NCBI GenBank assembly: GCA_023143935.1
Contig: JAGLGQ010000018.1
Span: 1 to 13,350, forward strand
Length of the DNA stretch: 13,350 nt
Source of the DNA: Minisyncoccota bacterium
Lineage (GTDB): Bacteria; Patescibacteriota; Minisyncoccia; Phycocordibacterales; GCA-2747955
Reading direction: 5' to 3'
A program made the position numbers and the translations under genes. Under the pieces are notes generated by a model. The model was not told where the DNA came from. It saw only the letters and a program-made list of their open reading frames with translations, and searched no databases. This document shows, one piece after another, positions 11,479 through 13,350 of the stretch (position 1 is its first letter; each line of letters opens with the position of its first letter).

Positions 11479-11610
11479 TTATTTCTTTTTACCCACTTTT
11501 TTCTTTGTTGCCTTTTTTTCAAGCATAACTTTTTTAATAGCTAATCTTTTTGCAGTTTTGTGGTTTCTTGTTGTTTTATTTTTTCCAACACCTGTATCTC
11601 TTTTTGCCAT
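11479..11610 (-). CDS. 43-residue lysine-rich basic protein, unknown
   Basis: A complete small reading frame with its own terminator at 11437-11471 and a promoter-like TATAAT just upstream. It begins MAKRDTGVGKNKTTRNHKTA, continues through a short hydrophobic helix (RLAIKKVML, 22-30) and ends in a lysine tail (KKKVGKKK). About 40% of residues are Lys or Arg, with two acidic residues only, so it almost certainly binds nucleic acid. Size and charge resemble small ribosomal proteins or nucleoid-associated peptides, but I do not recognise a family, and it is not bL34, bL35, bL36 or THX by sequence. It is divergent from the ABC-F ATPase gene across the 11-bp repeat array. The strong palindromic terminator and sensible codon content make a real gene likely. 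Confidence 0.7.
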   Translation of the reverse strand: MAKRDTGVGKNKTTRNHKTAKRLAIKKVMLEKKATKKKVGKKK

Positions 11611-11620
11611 AATATATTGT

Positions 11621-11626
11621 ATTATA
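11621..11626 (-). promoter_or_regulatory. -10 box of the small basic gene
   Basis: On the minus strand TATAAT lies 10 nt before the ATG at 11610. A weak -35 (TTTCAA, 11649-11644) has a 17-bp spacer. An overlapping alternative, TACAAT, ends 5 nt before the ATG. Either way the leader is only a few nucleotides. Confidence 0.5.
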
Positions 11627-11659
11627 CACTAAAATTTAAAAAATTGAAATATACTTTGA

Positions 11660-11703
11660 AATGTTACAGCAATGTTACACCAATGTTACAGCAAAGCTAC
11701 AAC
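11660..11703. repeat. Four tandem 11-bp direct repeats between divergent promoters
   Basis: Units: AATGTTACAGC (11660-11670), AATGTTACACC (11671-11681), AATGTTACAGC (11682-11692) and the diverged AAAGCTACAAC (11693-11703). The 11-bp period is about one helical turn, so all units face the same side of DNA. The array ends 2 bp before the -35 of the ABC-F leader promoter and is also upstream of the small basic gene's promoter. This is the geometry of a multi-site binding array for a regulator, but no candidate regulator is visible in the window. Confidence 0.85.
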
Positions 11704-11705
11704 GC

Positions 11706-11732
11706 TTGACTTTTTGTCTTTATACATATAAT
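11706..11732 (+). promoter_or_regulatory. Promoter of the ABC-F leader
   Basis: TTGACT (11706-11711) and a perfect TATAAT (11727-11732) are separated by a short 15-bp spacer. Transcription should start near 11739, about 3 nt before the leader ATG at 11742. The short spacer and the adjacent tandem repeats fit a promoter that needs an activator. Confidence 0.6.
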
Positions 11733-11741
11733 ATAGTCATT

Positions 11742-11789
11742 ATGTTAGAAATGACTACAACGATATCAACAGCTGCCACTACTGTTTAA
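11742..11789 (+). CDS. 15-codon leader peptide upstream of the ABC-F gene
   Basis: The reading frame encodes MLEMTTTISTAATTV and stops with TAA at 11787-11789. Its ATG lies 9 nt after a TATAAT box, the same near-leaderless arrangement as real genes in this window. Six of 15 codons are threonine. Codons 5-7 (ACT ACA ACG) form the left arm of the outer hairpin, and codons 13-15 overlap the left arm of the inner hairpin, so translation must disturb these structures. The stop codon lies 7 nt before the segment able to act as antiterminator. Translation is inferred, not shown; threonine richness may merely reflect pairing constraints. Confidence 0.5.
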   Translation: MLEMTTTISTAATTV

Positions 11790-11848
11790 TACAGTAGAGG
11801 TTTTGTTGTAGTTAAAAATAAAACTTCTTTATGTTAAGAGGTTTTTTT
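11754..11848 (+). promoter_or_regulatory. Putative ribosome-mediated transcription attenuator of the ABC-F gene
   Basis: Three alternative pairings are visible. (1) Outer stem ACTACAAC (11754-11761) with GTTGTAGT (11805-11812), enclosing inner stem CTACTGT (11779-11785) with ACAGTAG (11791-11797). (2) Antiterminator: 11796-11804 with 11820-11828, 9 bp including one G:U. (3) Terminator: 11820-11829 with 11836-11845, up to 10 bp, one G:U, in a T7 run ending at 11848. Pairings 2 and 3 compete for the same AAAACTTC segment (11820-11827). A ribosome stalled on the early leader codons would open the outer stem and free the antiterminator; a ribosome reaching the stop codon would cover it and favour termination. 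Confidence 0.55.
11820..11848 (+). terminator. Intrinsic terminator upstream of the ABC-F start
   Basis: A stem of 8-10 bp (core AACTTCTT 11822-11829 with AAGAGGTT 11836-11843) has a 6-nt loop, followed by T's to 11848. It lies 29 nt before the ABC-F ATG, where a terminator makes sense only as a conditional one. It is less GC-rich than the rsmI-dut terminator. Confidence 0.6.
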
Positions 11849-11877
11849 AGACTAATTAAAAAAATAATTTAAAAAAT

Positions 11878-13350
11878 ATGTCAAAAAATATAGGAATAAT
11901 AACTTTTAAAGATGTTTCATATGAACATCAAGAAAATCAACCAATTTTAATTGATACTAGTTTTTCTATTCGTCGTGGTGCAAAGTTTACTCTTATGGGA
12001 AAGAATGGGGCGGGAAAGAGTACACTTTTTGGGTTAATTACGGGGGAATATGAAGAAACAGATGGGTCTATAAATATAATGCCCAAAACAAGTATTGCGG
12101 TATCAAGACAAGTAATACCTCGCGATGAACTTAAACTTTCTGTAAGAGATTTTTTTCAAAAACTTTTTAAAGAAAAAATATATAATATAGATCCAAAAAT
12201 AGATGAAATTTTAGAAATTGTAAATCTTGGTCCGAATAAAGATTCTGAAGTTTTTGAGATTTTTAAAGATAGGATTATTGATAGTTTTTCTGGTGGACAA
12301 CAAGCCAGACTTCTTTTAGCTTCCGCGTTAATTCAAAATCCCGATGTTCTTTTACTTGATGAACCAACAAATAATTTAGATGCCGAAGGTATTGAGTATT
12401 TAACAAATTTTTTAAAGGAATATAAAAAAACAATAGTAGTAATTTCTCATGATGCTGATTTTTTAAATTCTTTTACAGAAGGAGTTTTATATTTAAATTC
12501 ACAAACGAGAAAAGTTGAAAAATATGATGGAAATTATAATGATGTGGTGGTAGAAATTGAAAGACAGGTTGCAAGAGAAAAAGCAAAGAATACATTATTA
12601 GAAAAAGAAATTAAAGTTAAAAAAGATAGGGCTAGCTCTTTTGGAAACAAGGGCGGGAGATTGAGAGATGTTGCAAAAAGATTAAGGGAGGAAGCGGCAG
12701 AATCTGAAGATAATAAAGTAGAAGTAAGAAAAGAAGATAGAACAATAAGACCTTTTGTTATTGAGGTGCAAAAAAAAATACCCTTAAATATTTTAAAAAT
12801 TTCATCTTATAAAATTTTTATAAACCATGTTTCAAAGGAAATGAAAGCAAATCTTATTTTGCAACGGGGCGACCATATTCATATGATAGGACCAAATGGT
12901 ATAGGGAAAACAACTCTTTTGGAATCTTTATCTTCGGGAAATGCCACGGGAGAAGAAGTGGCAGATGGAGTAAAAATTGGTTATTATAGACAAGATTTTT
13001 CTAATTTAGATTTTGAAAAAACACCTCACGAAATTTTAATGTCTGCAATGGATAAGCCCGATGAACAAAATATGAGGTCAGTGGCGGCAGGATTTTTAGT
13101 AGATGCTGAAATTATAAATGCAAAAATAAGTCAACTTTCAGAGGGGCAAAAAGGACTAGTCGCTTTTGCGAGATTGGTTTTAATGAAACCGGGACTTTTA
13201 ATTTTAGATGAACCAACAAATCATATAAATTTTAGACATATTCCAGTAATAGCAAAAGCATTGGCAGATTACGAAGGGGCAATGGTGCTTGTTTCTCATG
13301 TTCCAGAATTTGTAGAAAAAGTAGCCATTGATGATATTTTTGATTTAACT
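11878..13350 (+). CDS. ABC-F family ATPase (translation factor or ribosome-protection type), cut by window end
   Basis: 491 codons are visible without a stop; the C-terminus lies beyond the window. Two ABC ATPase domains are fused without membrane segments, the hallmark of ABC-F proteins, which bind the ribosomal E site. Domain 1: Walker A GKNGAGKST (41-49), signature FSGGQ (137-141), Walker B LLLDEP (158-163), switch histidine in ISHD (H191). A charged linker (about 215-300) is the presumed P-site-tRNA-interaction segment. Domain 2: Walker A GPNGIGKTT (from G338), signature LSEGQ (420-424), Walker B with D444 and E445, switch H474. Domain 2 departs from consensus: SHVPEF instead of SHDxxF, and DEPTNHINF instead of DEPTNHLD. 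Whether it relieves stalling (EttA/Uup-like) or gives antibiotic resistance cannot be told. The ATG lacks a ribosome binding site. Confidence 0.92.
   Translation, partial: MSKNIGIITFKDVSYEHQENQPILIDTSFSIRRGAKFTLMGKNGAGKSTLFGLITGEYEETDGSINIMPKTSIAVSRQVIPRDELKLSVRDFFQKLFKEKIYNIDPKIDEILEIVNLGPNKDSEVFEIFKDRIIDSFSGGQQARLLLASALIQNPDVLLLDEPTNNLDAEGIEYLTNFLKEYKKTIVVISHDADFLNSFTEGVLYLNSQTRKVEKYDGNYNDVVVEIERQVAREKAKNTLLEKEIKVKKDRASSFGNKGGRLRDVAKRLREEAAESEDNKVEVRKEDRTIRPFVIEVQKKIPLNILKISSYKIFINHVSKEMKANLILQRGDHIHMIGPNGIGKTTLLESLSSGNATGEEVADGVKIGYYRQDFSNLDFEKTPHEILMSAMDKPDEQNMRSVAAGFLVDAEIINAKISQLSEGQKGLVAFARLVLMKPGLLILDEPTNHINFRHIPVIAKALADYEGAMVLVSHVPEFVEKVAIDDIFDLT

Follow-up and report, generated by a model that had tools for sequence, protein, structure and literature searches.

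A putative threonine leader-peptide attenuator ahead of both an ABC-F gene and thrS of a Parcubacterium

Introduction

The thr operon and pheST, the latter with pheM, are controlled by amino-acid attenuators that work through a leader peptide. In the logic of the trp and his attenuators, as given in the available part of PMC1183508, the terminator forms when the ribosome crosses the control codons quickly. Similar devices can stand ahead of two genes, as in bacilli, where the 5' UTRs of hisS* and hisZ closely resemble each other and have predicted histidine leader-peptide attenuators (Naville and Gautheret 2010, PMC2965389, available portion); a thrS leader is not described in the accessible portions of that paper or of PMC13410324. 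Leaders of this general form also precede ABC-F genes. According to the accessible part of PMC9226507, vmlR of Bacillus subtilis is preceded by a uORF, an anti-antiterminator, an antiterminator and an intrinsic terminator, the uORF encoding the tripeptide MIN, the inducers being drugs such as lincomycin, and a hairpin hiding the Shine-Dalgarno sequence; the msrD gene likewise has a leader peptide, which responds to macrolides (PMC10314930, available portion).

Here we describe the leader that precedes an ABC-F gene on a 13,350-nucleotide stretch of DNA, hereafter the window (contig JAGLGQ010000018.1 of the Minisyncoccota assembly GCA_023143935.1, forward strand). Like the trp and his attenuators, as far as these are covered by the source cited above, it has a leader ORF with control codons and a four-strand 1:2 / 2:3 / 3:4 switch. 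Unlike the amino-acid attenuators, it precedes an ABC-F translation factor rather than a biosynthetic operon or a synthetase, it lies in a CPR genome, and its leader start, 7 nt behind a −10-like box, is probably leaderless. With hisS* and hisZ it shares the presence of highly similar predicted leader attenuators ahead of two genes, and it differs from that pair, as described in the portion cited, in the amino acid (threonine, not histidine), in the host (Patescibacteria, not Firmicutes) and in that one gene of the two encodes an ABC-F factor unrelated to the other. Its predicted elements correspond to those of vmlR, and as with msrD the gene behind the leader peptide encodes an ABC-F protein; it differs from vmlR in the uORF and the Shine-Dalgarno-hiding hairpin just mentioned and, on the reading favored here, from both in lacking a drug as inducer. 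The T-box also senses uncharged tRNA, but without a leader peptide. No Rfam family reached its gathering score in the leader region (best E 0.42), and no T-box match was found up to E 5 in 11500-12100. The open-access literature, judged partly by title and with subscription papers mostly outside it, yielded no leader-peptide attenuation in Patescibacteria, CPR or Parcubacteria. If the reading that we favor is right, the Patescibacteria would gain a case both of such attenuation and of an ABC-F factor under amino-acid control. A synthetase gene and a gene for a translation factor would share one complete attenuator cassette, whose switch has been kept at each, and the supply of threonyl-tRNA would be linked, in a way that can be tested, to an ABC-F protein that acts on the ribosome.

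Anatomy of the leader

The leader and the ABC-F gene (11878-13350, with two ATPase domains and its 3' end lost at the contig end) lie on the plus strand, and the leader ORF, protector hairpin, 9-bp antiterminator pairing and terminator of the original prediction can be read directly in the DNA where they had been placed. The ORF (11742-11789) begins with ATG at 11742-11744, runs for 15 sense codons and stops with TAA at 11787-11789. Its peptide, MLEMTTTISTAATTV, has threonine at codons 5, 6, 7, 10, 13 and 14; six threonines in the 14 codons after the start give a binomial P of 1.3e-5, taking as background the window's own threonine frequency of 4.2% and with the residue picked after the ORF was seen. 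The codons themselves make up the 5' strand (region 1) of the protector or 1:2 hairpin (11752-11814), in which the Thr codons ACTACAAC pair with GTTGTAGT in the outer stem and CTACTGT with ACAGTAG in the inner one, in both the minimum free energy (MFE) and the centroid fold. Seven nucleotides separate the leader stop codon from GAGGTTTT (11797-11804), which is part of region 2, the antiterminator 5' strand AGAGGTTTT (11796-11804) that is predicted to pair with 11820-11828. Region 3 (11820-11829), recognized from the folds, the stall-position scans and the alignment, contains AAAACTTC (11820-11827) and is common to antiterminator and terminator, and region 4 with its U-tract (11836-11848), containing AAGAGGTTTT (11836-11845), completes a predicted intrinsic terminator.

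The folding check proposed with the original prediction was run on the 142-nt leader stretch and gave an MFE of −32 kcal/mol against −19.1 ± 3.1 for shuffled sequences (z −4.15), with 0 of 200 shuffles folding as well. The terminator hairpin with its U-tract appears in the MFE fold and is absent from the list of the pattern scan, because the rule of that scan demands three G-C pairs and the stem was counted with two; the sole terminator-like site listed is the inner protector hairpin. The same scan found a sigma-70-like promoter match (11706-11734), TTGACT at 11706-11711 and TAATAT at 11729-11734 with a spacer of 17 and a score of 9/12 (alternatively TATAAT at 11727-11732), which was duplicated together with the leader and aligns to the copy described below. 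Since the scan returned 5 promoter-like sites in all versus 2.4 ± 1.2 in shuffles, this candidate is plausible but ordinary. Its −10-like hexamer ends 7 nt upstream of the leader ATG. The ORF would therefore begin at or near the 5' end of the mRNA, and its translation would probably be leaderless. That the whole is a set of chance hairpins in an AT-rich spacer, with no regulatory function, is hardly credible: the weakness of promoter and terminator in simple scans would fit such an origin, but the shuffles do not, and homologous leaders stand at thrS in two genomes, so that the paralogue and the sister genome introduced below already contradict it.

A second copy of the cassette ahead of thrS

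When 11700-11900 was used as a query against the window's own assembly (G000, 88% complete), one further match extended over most of it (query bases 5-177, 76% identical), on contig C68 and directly upstream of thrS, the threonyl-tRNA synthetase gene (591 bits with the NCBIfam thrS model, cut-off 384). Five weaker DNA matches (L003-L007) were set aside as short, AT-rich starts and terminators, by eye, and not leaders. In blastn of 700-base stretches a single block joined window 11704-11876 to positions 1501-1670 of the thrS locus L002 (75.6% identity over 180 columns, E 2.9e-31). This block begins at the −35 box and extends to around the start codon, so that G000 carries two copies of the entire control cassette; on the thrS side the block ends 11 nt beyond the ATG, in AT-rich sequence. 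The thrS leader peptide, MLAITTTTTTTTA, has 8 threonines in 13 codons and an unbroken Thr run, which is interrupted in the ABC-F leader, and in the thrS copies the Thr codons fit the function of the regulated gene. A related leader, MFKRTTTTTITTETA, precedes thrS (585 bits with the same model) in the sister genome G003, where the ABC-F gene, 77% identical to that of the window, has no leader upstream.

Over promoter, leader and spacer (alignment A1) the two G000 copies are 78% identical, the two thrS leaders 66%, and the ABC-F leader and the G003 thrS leader 62%; over the leader alone (alignment A2) the corresponding values are 78%, 77% and 68%. To judge from these sequences, the cassette was most likely copied from thrS to the ABC-F site, and copying after the split from G003 would be the simplest history, on whose order the two alignments differ. 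The alternative pairings have been kept through this divergence. All 12 consensus pairs of the antiterminator form in all three related leaders; in five of these pairs one side varies, and seven are invariant. We compared the ABC-F leader with 3000 random mutants of the thrS leader that carried 21 substitutions, the number observed; an antiterminator at least as stable was found in 0.8% of the mutants, a terminator at least as stable in 9.4%, and both in 2 of 3000. The terminator of the ABC-F leader (−7.3) is weaker in this test than that of thrS (−11.5). The protector was kept in 0 of 3000 mutants, a soft result because the alignment is uncertain around the inner stem.

These mutants bear on the idea that the cassette was copied mainly as a promoter, leaving an attenuator that sets a constant low level of expression or responds to translation speed in general. 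The duplicated block does take in the promoter, the Thr run is broken in the ABC-F copy, and by eye no such leader precedes the ABC-F genes of relatives among the matches listed. Against such a relic stand the joint retention of antiterminator and terminator, matched so rarely by chance, and a protector that still forms in free RNA, and we hold this account to be very doubtful.

Distribution of threonine-rich leaders

The family of the window comprises ten genomes, of which nine have thrS and five the ABC-F gene when matches are counted at E 1e-60; upstream of the ABC-F genes of G006, G008 and G009 no leader was seen by eye. For a wider survey of the order we looked for short ORFs that start with ATG, are 8-25 codons long and have no fewer than 5 Thr codons, making up 33% or more of the ORF, limits that were set after the leaders were known. 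It covered 95 thrS loci (from 90 of the 184 matching genomes, plus 5 more; 3 of the 95 regions shorter than 400 nt) and 81 ABC-F upstream regions (loci being the best 80 of at least 567; 5 of the 81 regions shorter than 400 nt). Gene starts were set by alignment, and the ABC-F upstream regions were taken from the start of the match even where this lay beyond residue 1.

Upstream of thrS, Thr-rich short ORFs were found in 5 of the 95 regions (G000, G003, G047, G139 and G072) and in none on the reverse strand; with other residues, the same rule gave only serine in 2 regions on the forward strand and lysine in 1 on the reverse. The leader in G047 (family f39) is MLRVLTTTTTNTTTTRFGR, and those of family f64 are MNILLATATTTTRP in G139 and MDLFKKTTATTTTTATT in G072. 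These threonine-rich leaders (L162, L202 and L220, from three genomes of two other families) stand ahead of thrS with a terminator and an antiterminator. At 5 of 95 thrS regions, Thr leaders are a solution adopted by a minority, and three families of the order show them. Among the 81 ABC-F regions (best 80 of at least 567), the window alone has a Thr-rich ORF, against a background of 8 cases for lysine, 3 for arginine and single ones for isoleucine, glycine and serine. Conservation in close relatives, on which the original prediction had staked its proposal, therefore divides by gene: ahead of ABC-F the leader is confined to G000, 1 region in 81 of the best 80 of at least 567 loci, a point that counts against the reading we favor, and ahead of thrS it is kept in one sister genome.

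Broader searches added little. A covariance model of the three leaders (R1) recovered only its own three sequences at E 0.01 with strict filters in 397 genomes belonging to the order, and since it missed the G072 leader (32.8 bits against the model, E 0.007 over 31 sources), absence by this model is unproven. A five-Thr-run pattern, which the window's own leader does not match, gave 10 matches in G000, G003 and G047, not above the reversed control; six are thrS leaders, and L221, L225, L229 and L230 are antisense to reading frames 360 to 1004 codons long. A protector pattern, ACAACAAC..YTTGTTGT, matched in 52 of 397 genomes with control counts of the same order; among the 30 loci fetched only that of G139 is a Thr leader, and the G072 leader (L220) also matched. 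One further match of this pattern, L240 near 1500 (G179), has a 37-aa ORF with 8 Thr. For the other PF00587 synthetases of G000 and G003 (8 upstream regions, one of 51 nt), two Leu-rich TTG ORFs were flagged and rejected, both looking by eye like the coding end of the preceding gene, and pheS in the window has no leader upstream, by eye.

Predicted switching of the leader RNAs

To follow the switch codon by codon, we folded each leader with the RNA blocked as far as the front of the ribosome, which was set at 7, 10 or 13 nt beyond the A site. With the 10-nt edge, the full-length ABC-F leader folds into the 3:4 terminator both as free RNA and with the ribosome at the stop codon. With the ribosome at codons 7-14, region 2 pairs with region 3 in nascent RNA, before region 4 is made; this pairing persists in the full-length fold at codons 10-14 and gives way again to the terminator at codons 7-9. 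At codons 5 and 6, the first two Thr codons, the protector is mostly intact with the 7- or 10-nt edge. The proposal that a ribosome at the leader stop would mask the antiterminator strand agrees with these folds at the 10- and 13-nt edges, which give a clear terminator, and the 7-nt edge gives a mixed state (4.6 pairs of 2:3 and 3.6 of 3:4). The G003 thrS leader also switches with the 10- and 13-nt edges and not with that of 7 nt, where the antiterminator forms at the stop, so the predicted switch depends on the footprint assumed.

At the 10-nt edge the leaders of G003, G047 and G072 switch in the same sense as the ABC-F leader. In G047 a ribosome at Thr codons 6-13 yields the antiterminator, and one at codon 15 or beyond, up to the stop, yields the terminator. 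G072 resembles it, its antiterminator forming at codons 7-15; an alignment of all six leaders sets the G047 antiterminator in a different register. The G139 leader terminates only from codon 13 on, and since its ribosome-free RNA favors the antiterminator it has no strong protector. In the G000 thrS leader the full-length terminator wins at every ribosome position, so switching there would need co-transcriptional kinetics. Sequence and folds together support transcription attenuation by a leader peptide with mutually exclusive pairings, as the original prediction had proposed.

Threonyl-tRNA or antibiotic as the predicted signal

We consider it likely that the leader is an attenuator of the thr/trp/his-operon type that senses the decoding of Thr codons, and that it is a duplicate of the thrS cassette placed ahead of the ABC-F gene. 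With ample Thr-tRNA, the ribosome would reach the leader stop and cover region 2, and the 3:4 hairpin would terminate transcription. When Thr-tRNA is scarce, the ribosome would wait at the Thr codons in region 1, leaving region 2 free to pair with region 3; with 2:3 formed, RNA polymerase would read through into the ABC-F gene, and the ABC-F protein would be made alongside ThrRS as threonyl-tRNA runs low. The ABC-F protein may be of some benefit to the cell at such times; we know of no link between ABC-F proteins and threonine.

The ABC-F ORF encodes 491 aa without a stop before it runs off the contig end. In the G000 assembly (88% complete) a single locus matches this protein at E 1e-60, other matches to the ABC-F model being partial. 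Its named relatives, among the matches listed, come mostly from Parcubacteria-group metagenome-assembled genomes, in keeping with the CPR-like host originally suspected. The solved relatives closest to it in sequence are YbiT (2e-53), PoxtA (1e-52), YheS and Uup, and in the pairwise alignments the interdomain linker has no more than small gaps. With the ribosomal-protection family NF000355 it scores 307 bits against a cut-off of 380, and it lies far below the cut-offs of the named ARE models shown, in both cases with the 3' end of the gene missing; we attribute no role in resistance to it.

The identity of the regulated gene invites the logic of vmlR and msrD, in which an Ala/Ser/Thr-rich leader would be the stall site of an antibiotic-sensing attenuator and the ABC-F protein a protection factor. 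Phenicol/oxazolidinone-like peptidyl-transferase inhibitors (chloramphenicol, linezolid) stall ribosomes with a penultimate alanine and, less strongly, serine or threonine (PMC8987054, accessible part), and codons 5-14 of the leader read TTTISTAATT, nine of ten being Ala, Ser or Thr; at the composition of the window, at least 9 such codons of 14 have P = 3.9e-5. PoxtA, a protein acting on those drugs, ranks second among the solved relatives by sequence, the ABC-F gene is found in five of the ten family genomes and so looks accessory there, and the regulated ABC-F genes of the portions of PMC9226507 and PMC10314930 available respond to drugs. Yet drug sensing makes little sense for the thrS leader, of which this cassette is a paralogue. 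Alanine is present in the thrS leaders of G139 and G072 as well, so composition alone does not decide between threonine and drug sensing. Moreover, YbiT is the best solved match, the linker gaps are small, and the protein stays under the curated ribosomal-protection cut-off. We therefore regard an antibiotic-sensing attenuator as unlikely.

Charging of Thr-tRNA is the better reading, given that the cassette has a paralogue in the thrS leader of its own genome and that leaders rich in Thr precede a few other thrS genes of the order. The leader is thus probably an attenuator common to thrS and the ABC-F gene that senses uncharged Thr-tRNA and not an antibiotic. The likeness to vmlR and msrD in the original prediction stands as regards a terminator/antiterminator leader ahead of an ABC-F gene, and amino-acid attenuation describes a paralogue of the thrS leader better. 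An intermediate course is that the duplicated Thr leader was re-tuned into a mixed sensor, whose Ala/Ser/Thr string would stall both under threonine shortage and under phenicol/oxazolidinone-type inhibitors. We think this quite unlikely; if true, a single switch would join starvation control with ribosome protection, and would show a route from a synthetase attenuator to an antibiotic-type ABC-F attenuator.

Other features of these genomes

In many of the relatives' ABC-F genes (L029-L048 and others) a promoter-like box lies, by eye, within a few nucleotides upstream of the start codon, which suggests that their mRNAs are leaderless. Beside the ABC-F gene of the window, a 43-residue basic ORF beginning MAKRDTGVG lies on the minus strand at 11479-11610, and a frame starting MAKRETGVG lies upstream of the ABC-F gene in L062.

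In-frame TGA codons align with tryptophans of the G000 thrS product at 4 of 4 positions in G003 (L109), 5 of 6 in G004 (L110) and 2 of 4 in G002 (L116). The 13 genes of the window have TAA at all 12 stops seen, 32 TGG codons and no TGA. This suggests that TGA is read as tryptophan in the sister genomes and is unused in the window.

Finally, T-box-like leaders lie upstream of serS, named here from its sequence and not by family search, at L154 357-521 in G000 and at L156 2745-2884 (minus strand) in G003, with 48 and 55 bits, below the Rfam gathering score of 93. With these elements at serS beside the Thr leaders, two tRNA-sensing designs seem to coexist.
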